Positions 18,944 through 39,687 of a DNA stretch of 44,848 bases are shown here, in pieces. The translations under genes and the position numbers were made by a program. Source of the DNA: Bacteroidota bacterium (lineage in GTDB: Bacteria > Bacteroidota > Bacteroidia > Chitinophagales > Saprospiraceae); contig JAHEAQ010000034.1 in assembly GCA_024642705.1 (NCBI GenBank), positions 1 to 44,848 on the forward strand, given 5' to 3'. The notes beneath the pieces are model-generated. The model had not been told where the DNA came from, ran no database searches, and saw only the letters and a list, made by a program, of their open reading frames with translations. How positions within the stretch are numbered: the stretch's first letter is position 1; the number at the start of each line of letters is the position of its first letter.

Positions 18944-20016
18944 GGAAAATAAAACTACATTTCTTTTGCATAAGCTTTTTGCTTGTTATTCAATCGATAA
19001 ATGGACAAGATGCAATTTTCTCTGATTTATTGAGCAACAAAATTTTATTGAACCCTGCACTAGCTCCTACATTAAATGGTCCAATAGCTTTTCAATTGAA
19101 TTATCGGGAACAAGGAGCGAGTATTTCTGACGGTTTGCCAATAAGAACTTTCCTTGCTGATGCAAATTTGAATTTCAAATCTTTAGGTACAGATAAAATG
19201 AGTGTTGGATTTTCTTTTATGAACGATATTGGAGGTTTGGGGCATATAAATAGCAAAATTGGACAAATTAATTTTGCCTATTTAAAAAAGATATCTGGAA
19301 AATATAGCAAGATAGGGGAGCATTTTCTTTCTTTTGGCACACAATTAGGAGCTGGGCAGCGGACGGTTAGTTGGGATAGATTTTGGTTTGGAAATCAATT
19401 CAACAGAGAATATGGATATGTAGATAAGACCATTTCAAGTGGAGAAGAAAGCGTAGAAAGTAATGAAACTGGAATATCTTCTGTTTTTGCAGATATTAAT
19501 TCAGGTTTATTATGGTATGCGAATTATTCCTCTAAGTTTTCTGCAAGAGCAGGAATCTCTTTATATCATTTAAATACTCCTAACATTTCTTTTCTCAAAA
19601 ATAAAGAGGATAATTTGAAAATGAGAACCAATTTTCATGCTGGATTTAACCTTGAAATTTCCAAAGAAGTCAATATAAATCCTATTATTATTTTTATGAC
19701 CCAAGGGAAATCGAATCAAATGATTTTTGGGTCCAAAATAGGAATCAGCAACCAGGATTTTTCCGAAGCTGCCATGAATATTGGACTTTTTTCAAGGATG
19801 GTTTCAAATAATGAAAATTTTGGAATGGAGGCAATAATTATCACCTTGAATATTGATTATAATAATTTAAAATTTGGATTAGGTTATGATATAACAACTT
19901 CTTCTTTATCTAAATATAATAACAGCAGAGGCGCTTGGGAATTCTTTTTTGCTTCTTTTTTGGTCCCTGAACAAAAAAATAAAACCAAAAGCAAGGAAAA
20001 GATTTTTAAATTTTGA
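18940..20016 (+). CDS. PorP/SprF family type IX secretion outer membrane protein
   Basis: A 358-residue outer membrane protein with a signal peptide ending near INGQ and the family opening DAIFSDLLSNKILLNPALAP. In Flavobacterium johnsoniae, SprF, encoded directly after sprB, is needed for SprB to reach the surface. PorP/SprF proteins are thought to be dedicated partners of type B C-terminal domain cargo. Here the start overlaps the stop of the giant protein by 4 bases (ATGA), so the pair is almost certainly co-translated and this protein should serve that cargo. Many alternating hydrophobic strands are consistent with a beta barrel. The end is convergent with the deoxynucleoside kinase gene, 34 bases apart. 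Confidence 0.92.
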   Translation: MRKIKLHFFCISFLLVIQSINGQDAIFSDLLSNKILLNPALAPTLNGPIAFQLNYREQGASISDGLPIRTFLADANLNFKSLGTDKMSVGFSFMNDIGGLGHINSKIGQINFAYLKKISGKYSKIGEHFLSFGTQLGAGQRTVSWDRFWFGNQFNREYGYVDKTISSGEESVESNETGISSVFADINSGLLWYANYSSKFSARAGISLYHLNTPNISFLKNKEDNLKMRTNFHAGFNLEISKEVNINPIIIFMTQGKSNQMIFGSKIGISNQDFSEAAMNIGLFSRMVSNNENFGMEAIIITLNIDYNNLKFGLGYDITTSSLSKYNNSRGAWEFFFASFLVPEQKNKTKSKEKIFKF

Positions 20017-24243: not shown

Positions 24244-25647
24244 ATGCGTAATATATTGAAAATCAACTTTTTACTTGCCTTTGTCATGTTGTTCATTCAA
24301 TTTTCGTCCTTAGCACAGGTTTCTGCTGATGAAGGAAAGGAATTGTTTAAGAACTACTGCGCAGCCTGTCATGCGAAATCAATGCGAGTAAATGCTACTG
24401 GTCCAGCATTAGTTAATGCAGAAGCAAATTGGGCTGAATATGATAGAGCTGACTTGTATGCTTGGATAAGAAATTCTCAAGCAGAGATTAATGACACAAA
24501 ACATCCAAGAGCTGTGGAATTGTGGAATACCTACAAACCCACAATTATGACTTCATTCCCAAATCTTACGGATGATAATATTGAATCTATATTAGCTTAC
24601 ATACAAGTTGCCGCAAATCCGGTTGCTGTAGCAGGTGAAAATATAAGCGGTCCTGTTGTAGTTGAAAAGAAATCTAATACGATTTACTATGTTCTTGCTT
24701 TAGCACTCGCATTTTTAGCATTCATACTAACAAGAATTATCAATAATCTTAATGTAATTGCTGCGAAAAGTGATAATCCTGATGCAATTGTAAATCGAAA
24801 ATCAATTATTGAAACTTTAACTTCTAAAGGTTTAATCAGTTTTGTAGTTTTTCTTTTAGTTGTTATAGGCGGTTATAAATCAGTAAATACTGCTGTAAAT
24901 CTTGGAAGACAACAAGGTTATTCACCAGAACAACCTATAAAATTTTCTCATGAAACCCACGCTGGTATTAATGGTATTGATTGCCAATACTGCCACGATG
25001 GGGCAAGAAGATCTAAACATTCTGTAATTCCTGCAGCTAACACATGCATGAATTGCCATTCTGCCATAAAAGTAGGTTCTGAATATGGCACTGCTGAATT
25101 GTCCAAAATTTATGCTTCTATCGGTTTCAATCCAACAACTGGAACCTATATTGAAAATTATGAAGATATGTCAGAAAGTGACATTGAAAATATTTTTACA
25201 AAATGGATTGGCGACAATTATTTAGAAGTAAAAGGTATAGCAGAGTTGGATAAAGATGGGAATAAATTGGTTTCCGAACAATGGAAAGGCATCAAAGAAT
25301 CACTTACTAGTGATGTGAAACCTAAAATTCAAGGTCCAATTGAATGGATTAGAATCCATAATCTTCCAGATCATGTTTATTTTAATCATGCACAACACGT
25401 AACTGTTGGAAAAGTTGCTTGCCAACAATGCCATGGCACAGTGGAAGCAATGAAAGTTCTCGAACAATATTCCCCACTTTCTATGGGTTGGTGTATTAAT
25501 TGTCACAGACAAACTGAAGTTAAGTTTGCGGGTAATGAATATTATGAGGCTTATGAAGGTTATCACAAAGAATTGAACAGCGGTGAAAGATCAAAAGTGA
25601 CAGTTGAAGATATCGGAGGACTTGAATGTCAAAAATGCCATTATTAA
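24244..25647 (+). CDS. actA: ACIII cytochrome c subunit ActA with extra N-terminal monoheme domain
   Basis: Multiheme periplasmic subunit of alternative complex III (quinol:cytochrome c oxidoreductase). A signal peptide (1 to about 24, SSLAQ) is followed by a class I cytochrome c domain with CAACH at 39-43 and a probable axial Met102 (IMTSFPNL). Two hydrophobic helices (about 146-164 and 197-213) come next, then a cytochrome c3-like domain with five CxxCH motifs: CQYCH (247-251), CMNCH (268-272), CQQCH, CINCH and a terminal CQKCH. That gives six heme sites in one 467-residue chain, one more than the pentaheme ActA described for Rhodothermus. First gene of a 12-gene operon; 43 bases separate it from actB. 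Confidence 0.93.
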   Translation: MRNILKINFLLAFVMLFIQFSSLAQVSADEGKELFKNYCAACHAKSMRVNATGPALVNAEANWAEYDRADLYAWIRNSQAEINDTKHPRAVELWNTYKPTIMTSFPNLTDDNIESILAYIQVAANPVAVAGENISGPVVVEKKSNTIYYVLALALAFLAFILTRIINNLNVIAAKSDNPDAIVNRKSIIETLTSKGLISFVVFLLVVIGGYKSVNTAVNLGRQQGYSPEQPIKFSHETHAGINGIDCQYCHDGARRSKHSVIPAANTCMNCHSAIKVGSEYGTAELSKIYASIGFNPTTGTYIENYEDMSESDIENIFTKWIGDNYLEVKGIAELDKDGNKLVSEQWKGIKESLTSDVKPKIQGPIEWIRIHNLPDHVYFNHAQHVTVGKVACQQCHGTVEAMKVLEQYSPLSMGWCINCHRQTEVKFAGNEYYEAYEGYHKELNSGERSKVTVEDIGGLECQKCHY

Positions 25648-25690
25648 TAATAGAATAACTGAGTTACACTCACAATAAATTAAAAGCTAA

Positions 25691-28600
25691 ATGAAGCAAG
25701 AAAATCAGGGAATATGGATTGGAGAAAAGGACCTTACTAGAGATCCTGAATTCATAAAATCTGCCTCGCAAGAATTTGCTGAAGAAAATATACTTGAAAA
25801 ACTAGGCGAAAAAAACGTTTCAAGTAATCTTGAAAGTACAAGAAGAGATTTCCTTAAATATTTAGGATTTGGACTAGGCGCAGCAACTTTAGCTGCAAGC
25901 TGCGAAATTCCAATTAAGAAGGCAATACCTTATGTCATCAAACCCGATGAAATTGTACCTGGAATTGCTAATTATTATGCAAGCAGTTATGTTAAAGGTG
26001 GCGATTATTGTTCAATATTGGTAAAGACTCGAGAAGGAAGACCTATCAAAATTGAAGGGAATAGCTTATCATCAATAAATAAGGGAGGAACATCTGCAAG
26101 AGCCCAAGCAATGGTTTTGGAATTGTATGATCTAAATAGACAACAAGATCCGTCCATTAAAGGTGAAAAAGTTAGCTGGAATGATCTTGATGCAGCCGTT
26201 AAATCAAAATTAGCAGCTTCAACAAACATAAGGATTTTAACAAATACTGTGCTCAGCCCAAGTGCAAAAGCTTCCATGGGTGAGTTTATAGAGAAGTATC
26301 CAAATACTCAGGTTGTTGTGTATGATCCAGTTTCTAGCTCTGCTCTTCTTGATGCAAATGAACAGACATTTGGACAAAGAGTAATTCCAAATTATAGGTT
26401 TGATATGGCTGACGTTATCGTTAGTTTTAATGCTGATTTTTTAGGAACTTGGATTTCTCCAGTAGAGTATGCAACTCAATACGCTGCTAAAAGAAAAATA
26501 AATGATGTTTCAAATCCTAAAATGTCAAGACATATTCAGGTAGAAAGCCATATGTCTTTAACAGGATCAAACGCAGACAATAGAATTTTAGTCCGTCCGT
26601 CGGAACAAGGTGCAGCAATTGTTGCTTTATATAATGCCATTACTGGAGGAAATATCCAAAGCCCGTCTTTGAATGATAAAGCTAAAGCAGCATTAAATAA
26701 AGTTGCTTCTGAATTGAAAGCGGCAAAAGGTAAATCTTTAGTTCTATGCGGTACCAACAATTTAGCTGAACAAATAATTGTAAATGCAATAAATAATGAA
26801 CTTGGAAATATTGGCTCAACTGTAGATTTCAAAAATGCTTCATTGCAAAGACAAGGAAGTGATAAAGATTTGTCACAACTACTTGCTGATATGAATGGTG
26901 GTAAAGTTGATGTTTTAATTATTAACCAGGCAAATCCAGTATATGATACTGCTTTTTCTTCTGAATTTGCAGCTGCAGTATCAAAAGTGCCTACTTCAAT
27001 AGCACTTTCATATGATCATAATGAAACATCAATGCTTTGCGAGTATGTAGCACCTGTAAACCATATTTTAGAAAGTTGGGGTGATGCTGAACCTAAAAAA
27101 GGAATTATTTCAACTATTCAACCAACTATTGCTCCTTTATTTAGAACAAGACAAGCAGAGGCTAGTCTATTAGTATGGGCTGAATCAGTTAATTATGATA
27201 GCAATGCCGATCAACCTTATATGGATTTTGTGCAATCCAATTGGGAAAAAACAATTTACCAAAAACAGAGTAGATTTTTAAGCTTTAACGCATTTAGAGA
27301 TAATTTACTCCATGATGGAGTAATGTCAATTGAAGATAATAGCGATGCAGTTTCTTTTAGTGGAGATGTATCAAGTGCTGCGGCTTCGGTTACAAAACCT
27401 GGTTCAGGTGATATTGAAATTTCGTTTTTCGAAACTGTTAATTTAGGAAATGGTCAATTTACCAGCAATCCTTGGTTAATGGAAATGCCTGATCCGGTTT
27501 CAAGATGCGCATGGGGTAATTATTTAGCTGTACCAGTTGGATTTGATGGAGTTAGAAAAATGGTTGGCTTAAATAACTTGAAAGATGGTGACATGGTAGA
27601 AGTTACCATAGGAGATAATTCTGTTAAAGTGCCAGTAATTCAGCAATTTGGTCAAATGCCAGGAACAGTTGGTTTGGCTTTAGGTTATGGAAGAACTGCC
27701 GCTGGAAAGTGTGGAACTGGGGTAGGAGTAAATGTGAATAATTGTATTTCTTTGAATGGCACTTATCCTAATTATTTTGCTACATCCGCTACTGTTTCTA
27801 ATAAAATTGGAAAAGAAGATCATTTTTCTTGCGTGCAATACCACCATACTATGGGGGTGACTGCTGAAGACAAGAAAACTGGAGAAATGATTAATGCAGA
27901 TGAAGCTGCACTAGTATTTTTTAACTATGGATTAGTTGATCAAGGTTATCAAGGAGCATTAACGGATAGATCAATCATTTACAATTCACATGTAAATGAA
28001 TTAACTGAAAAATTAGAAAAACTTCACCACAAAAGAGAAGAAGCTCAAGATTTGAATGACAAGCAAATTTATGCTGGTTATGATGAGCTCTATGATAGAG
28101 GACACCATTGGGGTATGCATGTAGATCTTAACGCTTGTATAGGATGTGGTGCATGCACAGTTGCTTGTATGGCTGAAAATAATGTACCAGTTGTTGGAAA
28201 GAAAGAAGTTACACGTCACCATGAAATGACCTGGTTAAGGATTGATAGATATTTTTATGGAAATCTTGAAAATCCAAATACTGTTTATCAACCGATGATG
28301 TGCCAACATTGTGACAATGCACCATGCGAAAACGTATGTCCAGTAAATGCTACGAATCACAGCTCAGAAGGTTTGAACCAAATGGCTTATAATAGATGTG
28401 TTGGTACTAGATATTGTGCAAACAATTGTCCTTTCAAAGTAAGAAGGTTCAACTGGTATGATTACACTACAGCAGATATTTTCCCAGCAAACCAAGTAAG
28501 TTTGAATGGTGAAGATGAGCCTTTTGGAGCTAATAATTTAACAAGAATGGTTCTTAATCCTGATGTAACTGTAAGATCAAGAGGTGTTATTGAAAAATGT

Positions 28601-28867
28601 TCATTTTGTGTTCAAAGAATTCAAGAAGGTAAGTTGACAGCTAAAAAGGAGGGTAGAAGATTGGTTGATAGTGATGTAAAAACTGCTTGTCAAACATCAT
28701 GTCCTACTGGAGCCATTGTTTTTGGAGATATGAATAATAAAAAAGGAGAATTGAACAAGAAGTTAGAATCTCCATTGAATTATATAGTTTTAGAAGAAGT
28801 TAATGTTAGATCCTCAGTTAATTACACCATGAAGGTGCATAACAGAGATAAATCTTTTGACGCATAA
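25691..28867 (+). CDS. actB: ACIII iron-sulfur subunit ActB (Tat-exported, molybdopterin-oxidoreductase-like)
   Basis: A 1058-residue periplasmic subunit carrying the Fe-S wire of alternative complex III. A twin-arginine motif sits inside the chain (STRRDFLKYLGF, Arg51-Arg52) after a ~50-residue leader, the variant Tat arrangement known for this protein. Residues about 75-790 resemble molybdopterin oxidoreductases but lack a recognisable Mo-ligand residue, as in other ActB proteins, so no molybdenum cofactor is expected. The C-terminal part is a four-cluster ferredoxin domain: CIGCGACTVAC from Cys816, CQHCDNAPCENVC, CVGTRYCANNC, and CSFC plus CQTSC near 1000. Fifteen Cys fit three 4Fe-4S and one 3Fe-4S cluster. 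Twelve bases separate it from actC. Confidence 0.95.
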   Translation: MKQENQGIWIGEKDLTRDPEFIKSASQEFAEENILEKLGEKNVSSNLESTRRDFLKYLGFGLGAATLAASCEIPIKKAIPYVIKPDEIVPGIANYYASSYVKGGDYCSILVKTREGRPIKIEGNSLSSINKGGTSARAQAMVLELYDLNRQQDPSIKGEKVSWNDLDAAVKSKLAASTNIRILTNTVLSPSAKASMGEFIEKYPNTQVVVYDPVSSSALLDANEQTFGQRVIPNYRFDMADVIVSFNADFLGTWISPVEYATQYAAKRKINDVSNPKMSRHIQVESHMSLTGSNADNRILVRPSEQGAAIVALYNAITGGNIQSPSLNDKAKAALNKVASELKAAKGKSLVLCGTNNLAEQIIVNAINNELGNIGSTVDFKNASLQRQGSDKDLSQLLADMNGGKVDVLIINQANPVYDTAFSSEFAAAVSKVPTSIALSYDHNETSMLCEYVAPVNHILESWGDAEPKKGIISTIQPTIAPLFRTRQAEASLLVWAESVNYDSNADQPYMDFVQSNWEKTIYQKQSRFLSFNAFRDNLLHDGVMSIEDNSDAVSFSGDVSSAAASVTKPGSGDIEISFFETVNLGNGQFTSNPWLMEMPDPVSRCAWGNYLAVPVGFDGVRKMVGLNNLKDGDMVEVTIGDNSVKVPVIQQFGQMPGTVGLALGYGRTAAGKCGTGVGVNVNNCISLNGTYPNYFATSATVSNKIGKEDHFSCVQYHHTMGVTAEDKKTGEMINADEAALVFFNYGLVDQGYQGALTDRSIIYNSHVNELTEKLEKLHHKREEAQDLNDKQIYAGYDELYDRGHHWGMHVDLNACIGCGACTVACMAENNVPVVGKKEVTRHHEMTWLRIDRYFYGNLENPNTVYQPMMCQHCDNAPCENVCPVNATNHSSEGLNQMAYNRCVGTRYCANNCPFKVRRFNWYDYTTADIFPANQVSLNGEDEPFGANNLTRMVLNPDVTVRSRGVIEKCSFCVQRIQEGKLTAKKEGRRLVDSDVKTACQTSCPTGAIVFGDMNNKKGELNKKLESPLNYIVLEEVNVRSSVNYTMKVHNRDKSFDA

Positions 28868-28879
28868 TAATATAAACTT

Positions 28880-30664
28880 ATGAGTGCAGTTGTTTCACCA
28901 ATAAGGGAGCCATTAATAACAGGTCATAAATCGTACCACGATATTACCGAAGATTTAGTGTCTCCAACAGAAAAGACACCAGGCAGAGCTTGGGTTTTAG
29001 CATTTCTAACCGCTGTGAGTGTGCTAGCCTTCGGGTTATTTTGCATTACTTGGACCATATGGCATGGAATAGGTACATGGAATCTTAACAGAACCATTGG
29101 TTGGGGTTGGGATATTACCAATTTTGTTTGGTGGATAGGGATAGGACATGCTGGAACATTAATATCTGCTATTTTGCTATTATTCAGACAAAAGTGGAGA
29201 ACTGGTGTAAACCGTGCAGCTGAAGCAATGACTATTTTTGCTGTATTATGTGCCGCTCTATTTCCTGGAATTCACGTAGGTAGAGTATGGGTAGTTTTTT
29301 ACTTCTTTCCATATCCAAACACAAGAGGACCAATTTGGCCAAATTTTGATTCTCCATTACTATGGGATTTATTTGCAATCAGTACATATTTTACAGTATC
29401 CCTTTTATTTTGGTATACTGGATTAGTTCCTGATTTTGCAACAGTAAGAGATAGAGCTAAAGGTTTTAGGAAAAAAGTTTACAATACATTGTCTTTTGGA
29501 TGGACAGGATCAGCAAAACATTGGCAAAGATGGGAATCATTATCCCTTATTCTTGCAGGAATTGCAACTCCTTTGGTTCTTTCAGTTCATACTATTGTAA
29601 GTTTTGACTTTGCAACTTCAGTTATACCTGGATGGCATACTACAATTTTCCCGCCTTACTTTGTAGCAGGTGCGATTTTTTCTGGTTTTGCCATGGTACT
29701 GACGTTGATGATTATAACCAGAAAAGTCCTTAATTTACAAGACTATATAACTATAGAACATATTGAATCTATGAACAAGGTAATTCTTGTGACTGGAACA
29801 ATAGTTGGAGTGGCTTATTTGACTGAATTATTTATTGCTTGGTATTCTCAATATCCATATGAGCAATTCGCTTTTTTCAATAGGGCTTTAGGACCTTATT
29901 GGTGGGCTTATTTTGGAATGATGTTCTGTAACGTGGTTTCACCACAATTCTTTTGGGTTAAGAAATTTAGAAGAAATATAACACTTACATTTTTCCTATC
30001 TATTGTTGTGAATATCGGAATGTGGTTTGAAAGATTTGTAATTATAGGAACTACTTTAGCAAGAGATTATCTGCCATCTTCGTGGAGTTTTTATATTCCA
30101 ACATGGGTAGAAATTGGAATATTTATCGGGACTCTTGGATTGTTTTTCACATTGTATTTGATATTTGTAAGAGTAGCACCAGTGGTTGCAATTGCGGAGA
30201 TAAAAAGTATATTGAAATCTGCTGGTGATCAATATGTTGGACCAAATGCTAAACATCATGATCATGGTCATGGTGAATCAGAATCTCATCAGCATGAAAC
30301 AGAAGTTGTTGAAACTGTTGTTGAGCCAGTTGAAGATCATAAAACTGAAAAAAGTGGTAAAACTTCAAATACTTATGTACCTGTTTCAAGGAACACTTCT
30401 TCAGAAAAGGACGATTTAAAAAAGATAGAAGGAATTGGGCCAAAAATTGAACAGGCTTTAAATAATGCTGGAATTCAAACATGGTACGATCTTTCTCAAA
30501 GAACCGCAAGCGAAATTAAAGATATATTAAATGCTGCAGGAAATAATTTTTCTCAGCATGATCCTGGGACCTGGGCTAAGCAAGCAAAATTGGCATCAGA
30601 AGGAAATTGGGAAGCTTTAAAAGCGTACCAAGATAAATTAGATGGTGGTAAAGAAGTTATATAA
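28880..30664 (+). CDS. actC: ACIII membrane subunit ActC (NrfD/PsrC-like) fused to a helix-hairpin-helix module
   Basis: Polytopic inner-membrane subunit of ACIII, NrfD/PsrC family, with about ten membrane helices over residues 35-450 and expected to help form the quinol site or a proton path. Family features include TITWTIWHGIGTWNLNR-like text near residue 50 and GIHVGRVWVVFYFFPYPN near 135. Unusually, the chain continues to 594 residues. A His/Glu-rich linker (about 457-475, with HHDHGHGES) and a Ser/Thr-rich stretch lead to a helix-hairpin-helix module from about 511 (DDLKKIEGIGPKIEQAL) ending in a conserved-looking QAKLASEGNWEALKAYQDKL tail. Frame and codon use are continuous through the junction, so this is a true fusion. 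Eighteen-base gap to actD. Confidence 0.92.
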   Translation: MSAVVSPIREPLITGHKSYHDITEDLVSPTEKTPGRAWVLAFLTAVSVLAFGLFCITWTIWHGIGTWNLNRTIGWGWDITNFVWWIGIGHAGTLISAILLLFRQKWRTGVNRAAEAMTIFAVLCAALFPGIHVGRVWVVFYFFPYPNTRGPIWPNFDSPLLWDLFAISTYFTVSLLFWYTGLVPDFATVRDRAKGFRKKVYNTLSFGWTGSAKHWQRWESLSLILAGIATPLVLSVHTIVSFDFATSVIPGWHTTIFPPYFVAGAIFSGFAMVLTLMIITRKVLNLQDYITIEHIESMNKVILVTGTIVGVAYLTELFIAWYSQYPYEQFAFFNRALGPYWWAYFGMMFCNVVSPQFFWVKKFRRNITLTFFLSIVVNIGMWFERFVIIGTTLARDYLPSSWSFYIPTWVEIGIFIGTLGLFFTLYLIFVRVAPVVAIAEIKSILKSAGDQYVGPNAKHHDHGHGESESHQHETEVVETVVEPVEDHKTEKSGKTSNTYVPVSRNTSSEKDDLKKIEGIGPKIEQALNNAGIQTWYDLSQRTASEIKDILNAAGNNFSQHDPGTWAKQAKLASEGNWEALKAYQDKLDGGKEVI

Positions 30665-30681
30665 CATTAGAATTTATTAAA

Positions 30682-31203
30682 ATGAGCGATAAAAATAAAT
30701 CAATAGTTTACGGCTTATACAATGATGAGACTGAGCTTTTGTCAGCTGTAAAAGCTGCAAATAGTGCGCATTTGACTATTATGGATGTATTTACTCCTTT
30801 TCCAATTCATGGTCTTGATCCTTTACTAGGATTGCAAGAATCTAGGTTGCATATTGGAGGTTTTATATATGGATTACTCGGAACATTAACAGCTTTTCTT
30901 GGTATGACGTGGATATTCACAAAAGATTGGCCGCAAATTTATGGAGGAAAACCTCATTGGGCAGTACCTGCTTTCATTCCAATTACTTTCGAGTTAACTG
31001 TATTGTTTGCATCTATAGGAATGGTTGTTACTTTCTATATCATAAATGGATTGGGACCTGGAGTTGTAAACCCATGTATTGATCCTCGAATCACAGATGA
31101 TAAATTTTGCTTGGCATTTGATGCACACGAAGTTGATCCAATTCAAGCTGAAAATTTATTGCGAAGCACTGGTGCAGCAGAAATTAATTCTAAAACTCTA
31201 TAA
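30682..31203 (+). CDS. actD: ACIII membrane subunit ActD (DUF3341)
   Basis: A 173-residue ACIII subunit with a cytoplasmic N-terminal domain and two membrane helices (about 57-75 and 98-120). The opening YGLYNDETELLSAVKAAN and DVFTPFPIHGLD are the DUF3341/ActD signature; this part faces the cytoplasm. The C-terminal tail ends with a short Cys-containing acidic segment (CIDPRITDDKFC). Lies between actC and actE, 20 bases from the latter, as in all ACIII operons that I know. Confidence 0.93.
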   Translation: MSDKNKSIVYGLYNDETELLSAVKAANSAHLTIMDVFTPFPIHGLDPLLGLQESRLHIGGFIYGLLGTLTAFLGMTWIFTKDWPQIYGGKPHWAVPAFIPITFELTVLFASIGMVVTFYIINGLGPGVVNPCIDPRITDDKFCLAFDAHEVDPIQAENLLRSTGAAEINSKTL

Positions 31204-31223
31204 ACTGTCTGAAAGCAATAGAA

Positions 31224-32045
31224 ATGAAGGAAATAAAGAAAATATATTTGGTTGTGCTGATTGCATTTACTTTAATTGCATTCAATGCTTGTCAACAGCC
31301 AGGTGGAAATAAAACAGGAAGCGAATATATGCCAGATATGGCACATTCGATAGCTTTCGAGGCAAATACGTATGCCTATTATTATAATAATACTTGGGGA
31401 TCAAAACAGGAATACCATGACATGGCAATGCCAAGAGCTGGAGTTCCTGGTACCATTGCTAGAGGCGAAGCAGGTGGTAAAGTTTCTTTGGATTCCGAAA
31501 ATTCTATTTTAGTTCCTGAAAATGGATCTGTGCCATATTATTATGGAAATACTGATGAAGAAAGAATTAGAGCTACAAATGAGATTATCAAGAATCCTTT
31601 ATTAATTACGGATAAAGGATTAGAAGTAGGTAAAGAATTATATACTATATATTGCGGTATTTGTCATGGAGAAAAAGGCGACGGAGCAGGCTATCTTGTA
31701 AGAGATGATGGTGGCAAATATCCAGTTCAACCAGCTAATTTTTTACTAGAAGAATTTGTCGCCTCAAATAACGGAAGGTATTACCATGCAATTGAATATG
31801 GTAAGAACTTAATGGGAAATTATAAAGATAAACTTTCGTACAATGAAAGATGGGAGGTTATTCATTATATACGTTCACTTCAAGCTAAAGAATTGAAATT
31901 GAAATACAATCAATATGAAAACACATTGAATAATTTTGATGAGCCTGCAGGTGATATGAGTGTGAAGGAAGATGATACGATGAGTGAAAATCACGAAGGG
32001 AACCATGAATCAGATAATCATGAAATAGATGGTGAAAGCCATTAA
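31224..32045 (+). CDS. actE: ACIII monoheme cytochrome c lipoprotein ActE
   Basis: A periplasm-facing lipoprotein carrying one c-type heme. The signal ends at the lipobox AFNACQQPG, Cys23. The heme site CGICH is at 144-148, followed by GEKGDGAGYLV as in ActE proteins; an axial Met is likely in GKNLMGNY near 195. The last ~25 residues are rich in His and acidic residues (SENHEGNHESDNHEIDGESH), beyond the cytochrome fold. In known ACIII this subunit lies near the exit of the electron path towards the oxidase. The next gene starts 28 bases downstream. Confidence 0.94.
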   Translation: MKEIKKIYLVVLIAFTLIAFNACQQPGGNKTGSEYMPDMAHSIAFEANTYAYYYNNTWGSKQEYHDMAMPRAGVPGTIARGEAGGKVSLDSENSILVPENGSVPYYYGNTDEERIRATNEIIKNPLLITDKGLEVGKELYTIYCGICHGEKGDGAGYLVRDDGGKYPVQPANFLLEEFVASNNGRYYHAIEYGKNLMGNYKDKLSYNERWEVIHYIRSLQAKELKLKYNQYENTLNNFDEPAGDMSVKEDDTMSENHEGNHESDNHEIDGESH

Positions 32046-32072
32046 TGTTACTAATAGAATAAGATAGATACA

Positions 32073-33317
32073 ATGAACGATTATACATTTCCAAGTAAAG
32101 TTAGAACATTCCTCTTAGGAGGTATTGGATTAGGTTTTCTATGTCTTGCTTTGACATTTTTTATGGATGGATTGGACCATCATCCTCGATTTTGGTCAAA
32201 TTTTTTACATAATTCAGTATTTTTTACTGGTATATCTTTAATGGCCACTTTTTTTATTGCTGTTTGTATTACTGCTTGGGCAGGATGGTACACAGTATTT
32301 AAAAGAGTTTGGGAAGCATTTTCACAATTTTTAATGGTAGGATTGGTTCTTATGTTAATTGTAGGAATTGGTATTTATGCTAATTGGCACCATTTATACC
32401 ATTGGGCAGCTGAAGGAATCACAGACACTGCAAGTGAAAATTTTGACTCTATTTTAGCAGGCAAATCGGGATTTTTGAATCCAACATGGTATGTTATTAT
32501 TGGAAGTATTATCGTATTAGTTTGGATTTTCTTTGCATACAAATTACGGTCGTTATCTTTAGCAGAAGATGAATTCGGAGGAAATGATAATTTCAGCCAT
32601 CATAGATCAATGAGAAAATGGGCGGCAGGCTTTCTTCCAATTGTTGGATTTTCAAGTGCAGCCATGATTTGGTTATGGGTTATGTCAATCGATTCACATT
32701 GGTATAGTACATTGTATGCATGGTATTGCGCAGCAAGTTGGTTTGTAGCAATGATTGCTTTAACAATATTGGTAATGATATATTTGAAAAGCCAAGGATA
32801 TTTTGCAAATGTAAGTAATGATCATTTTCATGATTTAGGAAAATTTATGTTTGCCTTTAGTATATTTTGGACTTATCTATGGTTTTCTCAATATATGCTT
32901 ATTTGGTATGCAAATGTTGGTGAAGAAACTGTTTATTTCAAAACAAGAATTGACCATTATCCAGTTTTATTTTATGGTAATTTGATATTGAATTTTGTAA
33001 TGCCGTTTTTAGTATTAATGAGAAATGACACGAAAAGAAAATTTGGAACTTTAATATTTGTATCTATTGTAGTTTTCTTTGGTCATTGGTGGGATTATTT
33101 CTTGATGATAAAACCTGGAGTTTTAGAAAGTGCAACACATGGTCATGGCATTGGTGAATATACCGTTGGTTATACATTACCTGGTTTGTTAGAGATTGGA
33201 ACGATGTTAGGATTCTTAAGTTTATTTTTATTTGTATTCTTTACAATTCTTTCTAGGAAATCATTGTTGGCGAAAAACGATCCATATTTGGCGGAAAGTT
33301 TACATCACCATGTTTAA
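32073..33317 (+). CDS. actF: ACIII membrane subunit ActF (NrfD-like)
   Basis: A 414-residue polytopic inner-membrane protein, the second NrfD-like subunit of ACIII and a distant paralogue of ActC, with about ten hydrophobic segments. Typical text includes FMDGLDHHPRFWSNFLHNS near residue 30, a conserved MSIDSHWYSTLYAWY segment near 205 and GHWWDYFLMIKPG near 335. It ends in LAESLHHHV. No fused domain is present here, in contrast to ActC. It is 25 bases from coxB, which links ACIII and the oxidase in one transcript. Confidence 0.94.
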   Translation: MNDYTFPSKVRTFLLGGIGLGFLCLALTFFMDGLDHHPRFWSNFLHNSVFFTGISLMATFFIAVCITAWAGWYTVFKRVWEAFSQFLMVGLVLMLIVGIGIYANWHHLYHWAAEGITDTASENFDSILAGKSGFLNPTWYVIIGSIIVLVWIFFAYKLRSLSLAEDEFGGNDNFSHHRSMRKWAAGFLPIVGFSSAAMIWLWVMSIDSHWYSTLYAWYCAASWFVAMIALTILVMIYLKSQGYFANVSNDHFHDLGKFMFAFSIFWTYLWFSQYMLIWYANVGEETVYFKTRIDHYPVLFYGNLILNFVMPFLVLMRNDTKRKFGTLIFVSIVVFFGHWWDYFLMIKPGVLESATHGHGIGEYTVGYTLPGLLEIGTMLGFLSLFLFVFFTILSRKSLLAKNDPYLAESLHHHV

Positions 33318-33341
33318 TAAAAAAATTGAAAAAATAAATAA

Positions 33342-34838
33342 ATGACTGCGTTAGTAATTTTTTTAATTGTTCTACTACTTTTTGTAATCTTAGTCCAACT
33401 AGGTAAAGTAAATGAACTGTCTGCGAAGATTAGAGGTGAAGAAGATGCTGAGCAACAAAATAACAATAAGACCGCAGTTTGGTTGGTTATTTTCATGGTT
33501 GCATTTTTAGTGTTTTGTGTAGCTTCATCAATTTATTACAAAAATGTAATGTTAGGGTATGGACCTTTGGTTTCAGCATCCGAACATGGAGGTAAGTTGG
33601 ATTCTTTATTCAATGTTACTTTATTTTTCACAGGAATTGTATTTATAATTACTCAGGTTCTTTTGTTCTGGTATTCTTATAAATTTAGATCTTCAAAAGG
33701 TAGAGTAGGTCAATTCATTTCTCACAATAACACATTAGAGTACGTTTGGACTGCTATTCCTGCTTTAGTTATGACATTTTTAGTGGTTAAAGGATTAATA
33801 GTTTGGAATGATGTGATGCCAGATGTGGATCCTAGTGAAGAAGTTATTGAAATTGAAGCAACAGGTTACCAATTTGCATGGGATATTAGATATCCTGGAG
33901 CAGATGGTAAATTAGGCACAAAAAACTATAAGTTAATAAATCCTGGATCTAATCCTTTAGGAATGGATTTTACAGATGAAAAAACACATGATGATTTTAT
34001 TGCTGATAAAATAGTTTTGCCTGTGGGGAAAAAAGTACGAGTTAGAATAACCGCAAAAGATGTATTGCATAATTTCTATTTACCTCATTTCAGAGTAAAA
34101 ATGGATGCAATACCGGGTTTACCTACTTATTTTATTTTTACTCCTACCACAACTACAGCAGAATTTAAAGAAAATTTACGAGAATACCCTGAATGGAATG
34201 AATTACAAGATCCAAATGATCCTGAACTTGGCTCAAAGTGGGAAAATTTCGAATTTGAATTGGCTTGTGCGGAATTATGCGGTATAGGACATTATAGTAT
34301 GAGAAAGATTGTTGAAATTGTTTCTCCAGAAGAATACGAAATTTGGGCAGCTGCTCAAACTGCATATTATACTGGAATTAGAAATACCGAAAATGATCCC
34401 AACCTAGGAAAACTCTTTAACAGTGACATTATCAGTCGTGCAAAAGAATTTTCAACCAACATTGAAGCTGCATTAAATGCTGAAAATGCTGAGGATAAAA
34501 TAGTAAGGCTTAACTATATTCAATTTAAAACAGGTTCTTCTGAATTGACTGAAGATTCAAAATATGAATTGAATAATATAATAAAATTGTTGAACGATAA
34601 GTCTGCAATCTCCGCGGAAATTGGTGGACATACTGATAATATTGGCGATGCCGCTGTGAATTTATCCATATCAAAAGATAGAGCTAGCGTAGTTAGAGAT
34701 TACTTAATTTCTAATGGTGTAGCAGAAGCAAGATTAGTAGCAATTGGGTACGGTCAAACTCAGCCTACAGATTCAAATGATACCGAAGAAGGTCGCCAAA
34801 ATAATAGAAGAACAGAATTTAAAATTATTTCTCAATAG
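33342..34838 (+). CDS. coxB: cytochrome c oxidase subunit II fused to a C-terminal OmpA peptidoglycan-binding domain
   Basis: Subunit II accepts electrons at the dinuclear CuA site on the periplasmic side. Four N-terminal hydrophobic helices are seen (about 2-20, 46-66, 88-112, 133-152), two more than classical subunit II. The CuA ligands are complete: His243 (VLHNFYLPHF), Cys309, Glu311 (backbone), Cys313, His317 and Met320 (CAELCGIGHYSM). There is no CxxCH, so no fused cytochrome c. After residue ~385 the chain continues as a full OmpA-family domain to residue 498: NYIQFKTGSSELTEDS, GGHTDNIGD, NLSISKDRASVV, and the terminal GRQNNRRTEFKI, including the Asp and Arg positions that bind diaminopimelate in OmpA. 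The reading frame is unbroken. Fifteen bases to coxA. Confidence 0.95.
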   Translation: MTALVIFLIVLLLFVILVQLGKVNELSAKIRGEEDAEQQNNNKTAVWLVIFMVAFLVFCVASSIYYKNVMLGYGPLVSASEHGGKLDSLFNVTLFFTGIVFIITQVLLFWYSYKFRSSKGRVGQFISHNNTLEYVWTAIPALVMTFLVVKGLIVWNDVMPDVDPSEEVIEIEATGYQFAWDIRYPGADGKLGTKNYKLINPGSNPLGMDFTDEKTHDDFIADKIVLPVGKKVRVRITAKDVLHNFYLPHFRVKMDAIPGLPTYFIFTPTTTTAEFKENLREYPEWNELQDPNDPELGSKWENFEFELACAELCGIGHYSMRKIVEIVSPEEYEIWAAAQTAYYTGIRNTENDPNLGKLFNSDIISRAKEFSTNIEAALNAENAEDKIVRLNYIQFKTGSSELTEDSKYELNNIIKLLNDKSAISAEIGGHTDNIGDAAVNLSISKDRASVVRDYLISNGVAEARLVAIGYGQTQPTDSNDTEEGRQNNRRTEFKIISQ

Positions 34839-34852
34839 CTAAATATATACTA

Positions 34853-36709
34853 ATGGCTAATGATGTATTAACATATAACGACGATACCTTAATTAAGGAA
34901 CAAGGATTTGAAGATCATTTTCATGATCATCATGATGGTGATAAGTATCAGTCTAACTTTGTTACCCATTACATATTCAGCATGGATCATAAGATTATTG
35001 CTAGACAATTCCTAATAACAGGAATGTTTTGGGCTTTGATTGGTGCTGCTATGTCAATTATTTTTAGAATGCAACTGGGTTTCCCTGAGGAAAGTTTAAC
35101 TTGGATAAAACCATTGCTTGGCAAATGGATTACAGTTAATGCTGAAACTGGTGTTGGAACTTTAATGCCAGAATTTTATTATGCGTTGGTTACCATGCAT
35201 GGTACAATTATCGTTTTCTTTGTACTTACTGCAGGGTTGAGTGGTACGTTCAGTAATTTACTTATTCCTTTGCAATTAGGAGCTAGAGATATGGCATCAC
35301 CATTTCTTAACATGTTAAGTTATTGGTTCTTTTTTCTAGCTAGTGTAATTATGTTTTATTCATTGTTTTTAAGTACTGGTCCATTTTCAGGTGGTTGGAC
35401 AGCATATCCACCTTTAAGTGCATTGCCTCAGGCTTCCACAGGGTCGGGTACTGGTATGACTTTATGGTTGATGAGTTTGACATTTTTTGTAGTTTCTGTT
35501 TTATTGGGAGGGATCAACTATATTACCACAGTTCTAAATTTAAGAACTAAGGGAATGAGTTTATGGAGAATGCCTTTGACAATTTGGGCATTTTTTGTGA
35601 CTGCGATATTGGGTTTATTATCTTTTCCAGTATTAGTATCAGGATTCTTTATGCTTATCTGTGATAGATCTTTGGGAACAAGTTTCTTCTTAAGTGAAAT
35701 ATTTATAGAAGGTGCTGCCTTACCAAACGTTGGAGGAAGTCCTATTCTATACCAACACTTATTTTGGTTTCTAGGACATCCTGAAGTTTACATTATTATA
35801 TTACCTGCAATGGGCATTGTTTCGGAAGTACTTTCAGTGCATGCAAGGAAACCAATATTTGGATATAAAGCTATGGTATTTTCAATCTTAGCGATTGGAT
35901 TCCTTTCATTTATAGTTTGGGCACACCATATGTTTATGTCAGGGGTTAATCCTTTTATTTCTAATTTCTTTGTGGTATTCACATTAATTATTGCAGTTCC
36001 ATCTGCGGTGAAAGTATTCAACTGGATAACCACCTTATATGGTGGAAATATTAGGCTAAATACACCAATGTTATATGCAATAGGGTTTGTATCCATGTTT
36101 ATTTCAGGAGGACTTACAGGGATTTTCTTAGGTAATTCAGCCATTGATATTCAAATGCATGATACTTATTTCGTTGTTGCTCACTTTCATATTGTTATGG
36201 GTGTTGCTGCGTTCTTTGGTATGTTTGCTGGAATTTACCATTGGTTTCCAAAAATGTTTGGCAAATTCATGAATGAAACTTTGGGAAAAATACATTTCTG
36301 GATCACAATGATAGGTGCTTATGCTGTATTTTGGCCAATGCATTATATTGGAATGGCAGGAGTTCCTAGAAGATATTATAGTTTTAACAATTTTAATTCC
36401 TTTGATGATTTTCAATTGTTAAATCAATTTATAACAGTTGCAGCAATTATTGTTTTCGCTGCTCAAGTTTTATTTGTAATCAATTTTTTCTATAGTATTT
36501 GGTGGGGAAAGAAAATGAAAGATAAAAATCCTTGGAAAGCAAATACATTAGAATGGACTACCCCAATTAATACCGGACACGGAAACTGGGAAGGAAAACT
36601 TCCTGTAGTTCATAGATGGGCTTATGATTATGGTAAAGATGGTAAAGATTATATTCCTCAGCACATTCCTTTAACAGAGGAGGAAAAAGCTGCAGAAGGT
36701 TCACATTAA
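34853..36709 (+). CDS. coxA: cytochrome c oxidase subunit I (A1-type heme-copper oxidase)
   Basis: Catalytic, proton-pumping subunit with twelve core helices, 618 residues. Ligands are all present: low-spin heme His116 (VTMHGTI) and His446; heme a3 His444 (HFH of VVAHFHIVMG); CuB His309 with the cross-link Tyr313 in GHPEVY, and His358-His359 in WAHHMF. The Glu311 of GHPEVY places it in the A1 group with a D-channel. The N-terminus has a His/Asp-rich stretch (EDHFHDHHDGD, about 21-31) on the cytoplasmic side, before the first helix. It is 23 bases from ctaB. Confidence 0.98.
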   Translation: MANDVLTYNDDTLIKEQGFEDHFHDHHDGDKYQSNFVTHYIFSMDHKIIARQFLITGMFWALIGAAMSIIFRMQLGFPEESLTWIKPLLGKWITVNAETGVGTLMPEFYYALVTMHGTIIVFFVLTAGLSGTFSNLLIPLQLGARDMASPFLNMLSYWFFFLASVIMFYSLFLSTGPFSGGWTAYPPLSALPQASTGSGTGMTLWLMSLTFFVVSVLLGGINYITTVLNLRTKGMSLWRMPLTIWAFFVTAILGLLSFPVLVSGFFMLICDRSLGTSFFLSEIFIEGAALPNVGGSPILYQHLFWFLGHPEVYIIILPAMGIVSEVLSVHARKPIFGYKAMVFSILAIGFLSFIVWAHHMFMSGVNPFISNFFVVFTLIIAVPSAVKVFNWITTLYGGNIRLNTPMLYAIGFVSMFISGGLTGIFLGNSAIDIQMHDTYFVVAHFHIVMGVAAFFGMFAGIYHWFPKMFGKFMNETLGKIHFWITMIGAYAVFWPMHYIGMAGVPRRYYSFNNFNSFDDFQLLNQFITVAAIIVFAAQVLFVINFFYSIWWGKKMKDKNPWKANTLEWTTPINTGHGNWEGKLPVVHRWAYDYGKDGKDYIPQHIPLTEEEKAAEGSH

Positions 36710-36732
36710 TATTTAATTTTATTTGACTTTTT

Positions 36733-37626
36733 ATGTATAACGACAGAACATATCCAGCTTTAAGTCTGAAAGACAAAATAGCAGATTATGGTTTGCTTAT
36801 AAAGTTTAAGCTAAGCTTGACAGTTGTTTTTTCTGCGGTTATGTCATATTTAATTGTTGGTGGATCAAATGTGAATTTTATTGGAACATTAGCGTTGTTT
36901 ATTGGAGGGATGTTGGTAACCGGAGCTGCAAATGCATTGAATCAAGTTCTTGAAAAAGACTATGATGGTTTGATGGAAAGAACTAAAAATAGGCCAGTAG
37001 TAACTGGAAGAATGTCACCTTCTGAAGCTGTTTTAGCAGCTGGTTTGATGTGCCTTGTTGGAATTACAATTTTGGGTACATTCAATGCATTAACTGCTTT
37101 TTTGGGAATGCTTTCTTTGGTGTTGTATTCTTTTTTATATACGCCATTGAAAAGATTTTCATCTGTTGCTATTCTTATTGGTACTTTACCTGGAGCATTG
37201 CCAGTTCTAATTGGTGCGGTTGCAATTCAAGGAAGTATTAGTTCATTGGCAATTGTGTTATTCATTATACAAGTATTATGGCAGCTGCCACATTTTTTTG
37301 CTATTGGGTGGTTAGGATTTGACGATTACCAAAAAGCAGGATACAAAATGCTTCCAGTGAAAGATCAAAAATTAGATCCTAAAATTGGATTATTGTCGTT
37401 TTTTACTGCATTACCATTAATATTGATTGGTTTTGCTCCATTGATGATTAGCGGAATTAATTTAATTGCATGTGTTCTTGTTGGTTTGACTGGTATTGTA
37501 TATTCGGCTTTTGCTTGGAAATTTTATATTAATGCAGATAGAGCTTCTGCTTTAAAATTAATGTTTTGCTCATTCTTTTATTTACCAATTATATTATTCA
37601 GTTACTATATTGGTTCTATAACTTAA
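36733..37626 (+). CDS. ctaB: protoheme IX farnesyltransferase (heme O synthase)
   Basis: Inner-membrane UbiA-family prenyltransferase that adds a farnesyl group to heme b to make heme O, precursor of heme a for the oxidase encoded around it. 297 residues, about nine helices. The prenyl-diphosphate-binding motif NALNQVLEKDYDGLMERT (from about residue 72) carries the Asp pair, followed by KNRPVVTGRMS; the second loop motif LGFDDYQKAGYKMLPV is near 194. Located between subunit I and the first subunit III, 4 bases from the latter. The next enzyme, heme A synthase (ctaA), is not in the window. Confidence 0.96.
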   Translation: MYNDRTYPALSLKDKIADYGLLIKFKLSLTVVFSAVMSYLIVGGSNVNFIGTLALFIGGMLVTGAANALNQVLEKDYDGLMERTKNRPVVTGRMSPSEAVLAAGLMCLVGITILGTFNALTAFLGMLSLVLYSFLYTPLKRFSSVAILIGTLPGALPVLIGAVAIQGSISSLAIVLFIIQVLWQLPHFFAIGWLGFDDYQKAGYKMLPVKDQKLDPKIGLLSFFTALPLILIGFAPLMISGINLIACVLVGLTGIVYSAFAWKFYINADRASALKLMFCSFFYLPIILFSYYIGSIT

Positions 37627-37630
37627 ATAA

Positions 37631-38206
37631 ATGGATGCAAGTTTAAAAAACAATTACGGAAATAAAATAAATCCCCAGCTTTTTGGCCTTTGGATTGCTA
37701 TGGGTAGCATCATTATGATGTTCGGTGCATTTACAAGTGCCTATATAGTGCGTCAAGCTGCTGGAAATTGGCTTGAATTTAGACTTCCAGATTTGTTTAT
37801 TTTTAGTACAGTTATTATACTTATCAGTAGCATAACTTTACAGGTTTCTTATAATGCATTTAAACAAAAGAAAGAATTACTTTATAAATTAGGTCTTTTA
37901 ATTAGTTTTTTATTAGGACTTACATTTTTAATTTTACAATATAAAGCTTGGACTGAATTATTTGGAATAGGTGTGGATATGAAGGTAAATCCTTCAAGTT
38001 CATTTCTATATGTTATTACTGCAGTACATGCATTACACATAATAGGTGGAATTGCAGCTCTTATGGTTGCTATTACACACGCATTTACGTTGCCATTTTT
38101 CTATTCAAAGCAGAGAAAAATGAGGTTTCAATTGGTACTTCATTACTGGCATTTCGTGGATTTATTATGGGTGTATTTGTTTTTATTTTTATTATTGACT
38201 CGATAA
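37631..38206 (+). CDS. coxC: cytochrome c oxidase subunit III, short form
   Basis: A 191-residue, five-helix subunit III of the heme-copper oxidase. Features: FGLWIAMGSIIMMFGAFTSAY near residue 18 and the C-terminal LHYWHFVDLLWVYLFLFLL, which is the family hallmark with the conserved His and Asp. It lacks the first two helices of the mitochondrial type, as is usual for bacterial short forms. It follows ctaB by 4 bases and precedes a second, longer subunit III gene by 21 bases. Confidence 0.92.
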   Translation: MDASLKNNYGNKINPQLFGLWIAMGSIIMMFGAFTSAYIVRQAAGNWLEFRLPDLFIFSTVIILISSITLQVSYNAFKQKKELLYKLGLLISFLLGLTFLILQYKAWTELFGIGVDMKVNPSSSFLYVITAVHALHIIGGIAALMVAITHAFTLPFFYSKQRKMRFQLVLHYWHFVDLLWVYLFLFLLLTR

Positions 38207-38227
38207 TTAACTATTTAGACTATAGAT

Positions 38228-39238
38228 ATGGCAACAGAAACAGTCGTTCATCACGATATAGAAAATGATAGCAAAGAATGGGATGGTGGAAAATCACCTT
38301 TCAAAATCAGTTATGGCAAACTGATGATGTGGTATTTCTTATTATCAGATGCTTTTACTTTTTCAGGATTTCTTATTGCATATGGTGCATTAAGATTTAG
38401 TATGCCTACTTGGCCTGTTCCTGACTTTGTTTTTAAAACAGCACCATTTAATAATTTGGGTTTTGGCCATGGAGTTAACATGCCTTTAATTTTTGTTACT
38501 TTCATGTCATTTCTTTTAATTATAAGTTCCGTTACGATGGTTCGAGCAGTTCAAGAAGGTCACAGAGAGAATCGAAAAGGAGTTGTATTTTGGATGATTC
38601 TTACCATTTTTGGTGGTCTTGGATTTCTTGGTTGTCAAGCTTGGGAATGGACGAATTTAATCGGAACAGAACATATGACAATGACTGTTGATCCATTTGG
38701 TACGCATTCTGAGGCTGGAGCTTATTTGAACGAAGATGGTTCTGTTTCTGATGAAACTTTCCAAGCTGGATCTCCGTACATTTTACACAAAGTAGCAAAC
38801 AATCATGGAAATGAAGATCATTCAGCATCTGGACATGAAGAAAATGCTTCAGAAGAACATAGTGCAGAAGGCCATGGAGAAGAACATGGTTTCACACCAG
38901 CACATACTGAACCAGGAGATTATGCTGGATATACCATTTCAGATAGAGGATATATCCAAAGGAAATACGTAGTTTCTGAAGGGCAGTATGAGGGACAGAT
39001 CAAAACTTCAGCTTTTGGACCAAAAGCATTCGGTGCATTATTCTTTTTTATTACTGGATTTCACGGTTTTCACGTATTCTCAGGGGTTTTATTTTTATTA
39101 ATCATAATGTTAAACGCGGCAAGTGGTGTGTATGTTAATAGAAAAAATGGTTATGAAATGGTGGAGAAAATTGGGTTGTATTGGCACTTTGTAGATTTAG
39201 TATGGGTGTTTGTATTTTTAGTATTTTATTTATTGTAA
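38228..39238 (+). CDS. cytochrome c oxidase subunit III, long form with His-rich insertion
   Basis: A second subunit III, 336 residues. The family ends are conserved: LMMWYFLLSDAFTFSGFLIAYG near residue 33 and a terminal GLYWHFVDLVWVFVFLVFYLL. Between the third and fourth helices there is a hydrophilic insertion of about 100 residues (about 155-260), with a His/Glu-rich core at about 192-228 (motifs such as HGNEDHS and EGHGEEHG), whereas the 191-residue paralogue just upstream has none. Two adjacent subunit III genes are common in this phylum; whether both enter the complex is unknown. The next gene is 23 bases away. Confidence 0.92.
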   Translation: MATETVVHHDIENDSKEWDGGKSPFKISYGKLMMWYFLLSDAFTFSGFLIAYGALRFSMPTWPVPDFVFKTAPFNNLGFGHGVNMPLIFVTFMSFLLIISSVTMVRAVQEGHRENRKGVVFWMILTIFGGLGFLGCQAWEWTNLIGTEHMTMTVDPFGTHSEAGAYLNEDGSVSDETFQAGSPYILHKVANNHGNEDHSASGHEENASEEHSAEGHGEEHGFTPAHTEPGDYAGYTISDRGYIQRKYVVSEGQYEGQIKTSAFGPKAFGALFFFITGFHGFHVFSGVLFLLIIMLNAASGVYVNRKNGYEMVEKIGLYWHFVDLVWVFVFLVFYLL

Positions 39239-39261
39239 AAGATTAAATTCAGAAATATATT

Positions 39262-39687
39262 ATGGGACATTTGAGTTACGAAGATTCGAAAAAAGCAGTT
39301 TTCAGAGGTTTATTTCTTTTGGGAGCAGTTACCTTAGTAGAAGTATTATTTTCATTGTTCGGCAAAGGACACATTATTAGTGGAGTACATGAATATAAAG
39401 CTGTTGTAATAATAGTTTCACTTTTAATATTAATTCTTTCAGTTTATAAAGCATATTTTATCATCTATGAGTTTATGCATATGAGATATGAAATGCCTGC
39501 GTTGTCAAAAACTGTGCTTTTACCAATGGTACTTTTAGTTTGGGCAATAATAGCTTTTTTCTATGAAGGAAATGATTGGAATAAAAGAAGGACTTTGATA
39601 GAAAATAAAAATAATGAGTCCGTTGAAAAGACTAAACCTCAAATTGGGATGGATGTTAAAATTCTAAAAGAAGAAGATTTTCAATAA
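39262..39687 (+). CDS. cytochrome c oxidase subunit IV family protein
   Basis: A 141-residue small oxidase subunit with three membrane helices (about 13-31, 44-67, 82-101) and a charged C-terminal tail. The HMRYEMPAL segment between the second and third helix and the position directly after subunit III match the bacterial subunit IV family. Probably stabilises the oxidase. Last gene of the operon; the terminator starts 8 bases after its stop codon. Confidence 0.88.
   Translation: MGHLSYEDSKKAVFRGLFLLGAVTLVEVLFSLFGKGHIISGVHEYKAVVIIVSLLILILSVYKAYFIIYEFMHMRYEMPALSKTVLLPMVLLVWAIIAFFYEGNDWNKRRTLIENKNNESVEKTKPQIGMDVKILKEEDFQ

Follow-up and report, generated by a model that had tools for sequence, protein, structure and literature searches.

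Is a respiratory complex held to the bacterial cell wall by one of its own subunits? The question is raised by coxB, the gene for cytochrome c oxidase subunit II, on a stretch of 44,848 nucleotides from a member of the Bacteroidota (GTDB family Saprospiraceae; assembly GCA_024642705.1, contig JAHEAQ010000034.1, forward strand), which we analysed whole and call the window. The original prediction, made from the letters alone, held that CoxB carries a CuA domain and a complete OmpA-type, peptidoglycan-binding domain in one frame, and that the oxidase, and through it the supercomplex with alternative complex III (ACIII), is tethered to the wall. The usual picture of bacterial respiratory complexes has them diffusing freely in the inner membrane. 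The reading that we favour, with a probability of about 0.77, is that the OmpA tail of CoxB would tether the ACIII-aa3 supercomplex non-covalently to peptidoglycan, as MotB and PomB do with the stator.

Both domains were recovered in a single uninterrupted frame, as predicted. Pfam matches on CoxB were COX2_TM (residues 77-149), COX2 (171-260) and OmpA (395-489), the first two passing their cut-offs and OmpA (PF00691) reaching 77.6 bits (E 1e-21) against a gathering cut-off of 27.2; the motifs HTDNIGD, NLSISKDRAS and RRTEFKI are all present in the tail. The CuA domain is intact, with H243, C309, C313, H317 and M320 in place and invariant in 157 of 157 aligned CoxB sequences, position 311 being variable (E in 117, K in 30, Q in 10), and coxB is the sole PF00116 match in its own genome. 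Against the NCBIfam equivalog TIGR02866 the protein scored 128.4 bits, below the cut-off of 147.7, probably owing to an unusual sequence ahead of C309 (alignments to Protein Data Bank (PDB) entries left residues 264-307 unmatched); we kept the assignment because the Pfam cut-offs of the COX2 domains were passed and all CuA ligands are present. Since CxxCH occurs nowhere in CoxB, the tail has no haem c motif and is not a cytochrome c of the caa3 kind.

The fusion could have been an artefact of assembly or annotation, produced by a missed stop or a frameshift, and this we regard as refuted. No such defect was found between residues 340 and 385, and at least 149 genomes of the family gave one alignment spanning both domains, with an internal stop in G955 only. 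The same architecture is present in the nearest named homologues, Portibacter marinus (75% over residues 1-498) and P. lacus (72% over 19-498), and at nine other loci of the genome_contigs set. Chance is far from sufficient to account for the observation.

The membrane part of CoxB has two hydrophobic helices (positions 33342-33550) ahead of the canonical two, an extension that seems general in the order and the class, since many of the listed relatives align from residue 1-8. AlphaFold placed the helices at residues 2-30, 33-70, 77-114 and 130-158, with low confidence in that region. As the number of helices is even, the N- and the C-terminus of the membrane part would both be periplasmic if the CuA domain lies outside.

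In the OmpA domain, the diaminopimelate (DAP)-binding triad D432, N440 and R447 is present with the same spacing as in PorE, and the fold matches DAP-bound OmpA domains. The triad, which includes the aspartate and arginine whose conservation the original prediction had put at stake, survives intact in 68 of the 72 CoxB tails that were aligned. Three tails of genus g4 (L170, L171, L174) lack the DAP-binding Asp and keep the Arg; they are a natural negative control for peptidoglycan binding. W335 and G398 lie 63 residues apart here; for 68 of 72 family tails the distance is 60-66 (full range 50-73), and in other families it is longer (76-88 in f8, f18 and f19) or again 63 (f4). So nearly constant a length across such divergence suggests that reach matters. 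At 1.5 Å per residue in a helix and about 3.4 Å in extended chain, the chain ahead of the OmpA domain could have a span of roughly 12 nm, probably long enough to approach the sacculus above the CuA domain.

The original prediction called this way of fixing a respiratory complex uncommon; locally, the combination of subunit II with OmpA turned out not to be so. The genome falls in genus g1 and family f1 of our search grouping, and we take f1 to be the GTDB Saprospiraceae, most of the other full-length matches being Saprospiraceae metagenome-assembled genomes (NCBI places Portibacter in the Haliscomenobacteraceae). Among 248 f1 genomes (G117 and G248 included), OmpA lies on CoxB in 161 and, in 19, on ActE, the monohaem cytochrome c of ACIII, whose gene belongs to the same operon; both forms are lacking in 33, and in 3 the domain has decayed. 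The other 32 were left unclassed (22 without a CoxB found, 10 partial or unresolved), so that one of the two carriers is present in 180 of 216 classed genomes. In an order-wide sample of 298 genomes, 87 of them in f1, CoxB was readable in 84 of the latter (G256 and G270 gave no clear match and G278 was cut short): 72 have CoxB-OmpA, 10 do not and 2 are decayed. Outside f1, the order sample has 211 genomes, and the fusion occurs in at least 7 of them (G183, G053, G019, G024, G037, G073, G118). In the samples of the class (395 genomes) and the phylum (296), no row outside f1 among the matches listed covered both domains, the furthest reaching residue 402 by reading through two stops, and none of 44 rows from outside f1 had an OmpA match on CoxB.

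In the operons fetched for the genomes with neither form, some of them truncated at the end of a contig, no act or cox frame had an OmpA match; a split gene, in which a neighbouring frame would supply the OmpA missing from a short CoxB, was rejected for these operons. L120, L121 and relatives (g37, g42, g457, g469) have CoxB proteins of 462-503 residues with long tails lacking OmpA, and Pfam gave no further match, hence no substitute domain, in the tails of L120 and L121. In genus g27 (L131, L173, L331) CoxB has 483 residues and a tail resembling a decayed OmpA domain, with the DAP triad lost in the two aligned and OmpA undetected by Pfam in L131, the one scanned. G1017 has two full-length CoxB-OmpA genes (C52, C33), each with ActE upstream. 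In genus g470 none of the three sampled genomes (G965, G1031, G1080) matched CoxB clearly (the best E was above 1e-30), perhaps through loss of the aa3 branch.

The second carrier was met in G192, where CoxB has no OmpA domain and ActE has one. With this protein as query, ActE-OmpA was found in g23, g485, g465, g447, g483, g430, g428 and g440, and reading of the operons confirmed these genera and added g42, for a total of 19 genomes. None of the 19 has OmpA on CoxB (18 readable CoxB and one C-terminal fragment), and all 19 ActE tails keep the DAP triad. Of the 161 CoxB-OmpA genomes, 160 gave an ActE match (103 and 57 more), in no case with OmpA. An alignment row that ends early is unsafe as proof that OmpA is lacking, because in G1008 the ActE row stops at 288 and the frame continues into OmpA. 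We searched anew 58 CoxB-OmpA genomes with unseen ActE and 14 with long ActE frames, and read 30 loci, none of them with OmpA on ActE (in G997 ActE was unmatched, in G1063 its frame was cut, and the 344-residue frame of G1010 was judged by length); all further ActE rows were judged from the alignment and frame lengths. Of 53 genomes without an intact CoxB-OmpA and with a readable ActE, 19 have ActE-OmpA. No genome carries the domain on both subunits (Fisher p 2e-13, kinship ignored). In another family of the class, f85, two genomes have an act-cox operon with an ActE ending in OmpA (L393:4393-5439 in G475, L394:9137-10180 in G445) and a CoxB without it; a thrombospondin type 3-like stretch precedes the OmpA domain, at 24.7 and 21.6 bits against a Pfam cut-off of 25. 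Some other ActE tails are long and His/Asp/Gly-rich or Lys-rich, and are not OmpA (L400-L410, L420, e.g. in G1079, G986, G1033, G967, G963, G1030). OmpA matches L015-L080, considered as ACIII fusions, were rejected, as no act gene was found in those loci; five of them have CoxC1-like matches.

To place these gains we used two trees. The CoxB-core tree held 138 f1 rows (83 CoxB-OmpA, 34 neither, 18 ActE-OmpA, 3 decayed), among which the exceptions had been fetched deliberately. It required 17 changes for the CoxB-OmpA label and 4 for the ActE-OmpA label, the latter down from 6 once two outgroup rows in wrong frames (branch length 10) were dropped; a single group of all ActE carriers was rejected (approximately unbiased test, p-AU 1.5e-9, quick tree). 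The OmpA-domain tree, built without five long-branched domains of the own genome (L249, L250, L252, L254, L256) and without the fused loci of genome_contigs, gathered 82 of 85 f1 CoxB domains in one branch (support 97), with no ActE domain inside. Six ActE domains (g485, g447, g23) adjoin this branch with support 81; the positions of the remaining 13 are scattered or uncertain. The f8, f18 and f19 tails group apart (support 100), and the f4 tails make up a third branch. Our first reading of G192, relocation of the CoxB domain to ActE, is disfavoured, since the ActE domains lie outside the branch of 82 CoxB domains. The trees suggest, though not strongly, that OmpA was gained separately on CoxB and on ActE, and the simplest account would be an early CoxB gain in f1 followed by many losses, with further CoxB gains outside f1 and separate ActE gains; in the CoxB tree, which is unrooted, the deep f1 branch g474 has no domain. 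We think it fairly probable that in several Bacteroidota lineages OmpA was gained repeatedly, alternatively on CoxB or ActE, and that wall-anchored respiration is a selected trait which can be mapped, lost and regained.

In the proposed tether, the OmpA domain, on its linker of near-fixed length, would hold the DAP of the stem peptides of the sacculus with no covalent bond. The supercomplex would remain in the inner membrane, its clamp on the periplasmic face gripping the stem peptides reversibly, and the whole ACIII-aa3 supercomplex would be the object fixed to the wall from the inner-membrane side. To judge by operon context, ACIII and the oxidase may associate as one supercomplex in this organism, as reported for Flavobacterium johnsoniae. 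Because the same type of domain sits on ActE in other lineages, selection probably acts on the tethering of the supercomplex rather than on a property of CoxB. Candidate benefits are a restrained diffusion of an abundant complex, a set distance of its periplasmic electron-transfer face, and a link between inner membrane and wall. At the level of sequence the tether proposed originally has good support, from the triad and its spacing, the fold, the linker length and the ActE carrier of 19 genomes.

Several points weigh against this reading. In 12 of the 13 pairs for which both dN/dS values were computable, the CuA part evolves more slowly than the OmpA part. The 33 of 216 classed genomes with neither form and the 3 with a decayed domain indicate that the tether would be dispensable, not essential. 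The g4 tails retain the domain without its Asp, and some OmpA-like domains bind proteins, not the wall. The exclusivity of the two carriers is a strong pattern and not a proven rule, because the Fisher test ignores relatedness and an independent-pairs test, with at most one informative pair, had no power. The OmpA-domain tree has 113 columns and many weak forks, and the six ActE domains that adjoin the CoxB branch may share descent with the CoxB domain. Finally, the structure prediction proposed for judging reach served in part: the whole-protein AlphaFold model (mean predicted local distance difference test score 63) is reliable only from about residue 361, and its CuA half is poor, so that reach is only estimated.

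What else could the domain be for? It could be a protein-protein dock towards ACIII, the oxidase or a neighbouring envelope complex, acting in assembly or clustering and binding no peptidoglycan. A dock might sit on one subunit or the other of the supercomplex, and it would not miss the Asp that the three g4 tails have lost, yet neither would it need the exact DAP triad that nearly all CoxB tails and every ActE tail of f1 keep. The oxidase of F. johnsoniae is not known to have an OmpA domain. ACIII and oxidase were co-isolated from F. johnsoniae and R. marinus according to PMC8552683, which also argues against docking, and we consider this explanation unlikely. A neutral, decaying passenger of a chance fusion is more improbable still. 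It would account for the 17 changes of state over 138 rows, for the decay in one genus and the loss of Asp in another, and for the faster evolution of the OmpA part, but dN/dS was 0.03-0.23, triad and linker length were each retained in 68 of 72 tails, and the tails on CoxB of other families and on ActE seem to be separate gains.

The explanation that stands closest to the supercomplex tether overlaps with it, the difference being the benefit alone: the tether would be real and would serve envelope integrity, an abundant inner-membrane complex linking membrane to wall with no respiratory gain. The anatomy would be the same, the choice of subunit would be immaterial, and absence from 33 genomes fits redundancy with other OmpA-domain proteins, of which the own genome gave 19 matches. 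Most OmpA-domain proteins are anchored in the outer membrane, and it is not evident that these would make an inner-membrane link superfluous. Nothing in our data separates the two explanations, and we hold a purely structural benefit to be a serious possibility, though one that we lean against.

The surroundings of coxB are collected in the table. The gene for subunit I (coxA, at 34853) directly follows coxB, and this pairing is kept in relatives.

Features of the act-cox operon and of coxB (window positions); names marked as presumed are our own assignments
Feature	Position	Strand	Basis
act-cox operon	24244-39687	+	coxB between actF and coxA; gene order kept in relatives
actA	24244..25647	+	six CxxCH motifs, one near the N-terminus; name presumed from operon order
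actB	25691..28867	+	synteny with relatives; name presumed from operon order
actC (NrfD family), C-terminal helix-hairpin-helix-like tail	28880..30664	+	Pfam
actD (PF11821)	30682..31203	+	Pfam family match
actE, monohaem cytochrome c, lipoprotein-like signal, no OmpA in this genome	31224..32045	+	Pfam, sequence motifs
actF	32073..33317	+	synteny; name presumed from operon order
coxB (subunit II of cytochrome c oxidase, OmpA domain at the C-terminus; 498 residues)	33342..34838	+	ATG-to-stop open reading frame, Pfam, full-length homologues
N-terminal membrane part, four hydrophobic helices (~1-28, 41-71, 85-113, 131-159)	33342..33818	+	hydropathy, COX2_TM, AlphaFold
CuA domain, residues ~171-335	33852..34346	+	Pfam COX2; ligands H243, C309, E311, C313, H317, M320
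linker, residues 336-385, predicted helix 360-378	34347..34496	+	AlphaFold, CoxB alignment
OmpA domain, residues 386-498	34497..34835	+	Pfam, alignment; D432/N440/R447 match the diaminopimelate-binding triad
coxA, oxidase subunit I	34853..36709	+	synteny; name presumed from sequence
ctaB, two coxC-like genes, one coxD-like gene; operon end	36733..39687	+	synteny; names presumed

Residues ~511-572 of ActC form a helix-hairpin-helix/DUF4332-like tail, under the Pfam cut-offs, and in many relatives ActC is of about 470 residues; in G475 and G445 a stretch of this type has matches at the end of ActC and also at that of ActD. Elsewhere in the window, positions 13442-20016 hold the gene of an 1833-residue protein that combines SprB repeats with a CHU_C signal for type IX secretion and, after it, a PorP/SprF gene; the own genome contains GldM. 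The relevance to gliding and to the type IX secretion system (T9SS) that had been suggested is supported by co-occurrence at most, and we found nothing to connect these genes with the oxidase.

A literature search, which reached few subscription journals, turned up no paper that describes an OmpA or peptidoglycan-binding domain on a subunit of an oxidase or of ACIII; the combination of CoxB and OmpA is itself probably visible in automatic domain databases. What is new is to find known domains and a known anchoring principle on a respiratory supercomplex, alternating between two of its subunits. If the reading is true, a tether carried by the terminal oxidase or its partner would turn the fixing of respiration in space into a trait that can be separated genetically, and the alternation between CoxB and ActE is a natural experiment, pointing to the supercomplex, not the single subunit, as the unit that is placed.

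OmpA anchors on inner-membrane machines are already known from MotB and PomB. In MotB, PomB and MotS the carriers are ion-channel stators and here the carrier is a CuA oxidase subunit, in which anchoring is, as far as known, not needed for force generation; CoxB may act alike, but its membrane part is COX2_TM and its neighbours are act and cox genes, so that it is no member of the stator family. The subunit II of caa3-type oxidases likewise has an extra C-terminal domain, there a cytochrome c and here an OmpA domain without CxxCH. Photosystem I offers a parallel in another phylum and in a photosynthetic complex: PsaB (PDB 7f4v, presumably from Gloeobacter) has, like CoxB, an OmpA-type C-terminal extension on a core subunit of a bioenergetic membrane complex, matched by the CoxB OmpA domain at E 4.7e-13 over chain residues 758-864. 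We know of no OmpA-type domain on a second photosystem I subunit. A discussion of the PsaB extension was not found in the literature searched, including the accessible portion of PMC6946739. Related OmpA domains occur in PorE of the T9SS (6top, E 1.8e-12) and in other OmpA-domain proteins of the Bacteroidota; PorE, a lipoprotein associated with the outer membrane, has no oxidase part, and its crystal contained a bound stem peptide according to PMC7192894. For the ACIII of F. johnsoniae, the available text of PMC8552683 makes no mention of peptidoglycan, and OmpA figures there as the name of a promoter. That ACIII-aa3 supercomplex has the same kinds of Act subunits as the operon described here, and its six-haem ActA, as given in the same text, agrees with the six CxxCH motifs of our ActA.
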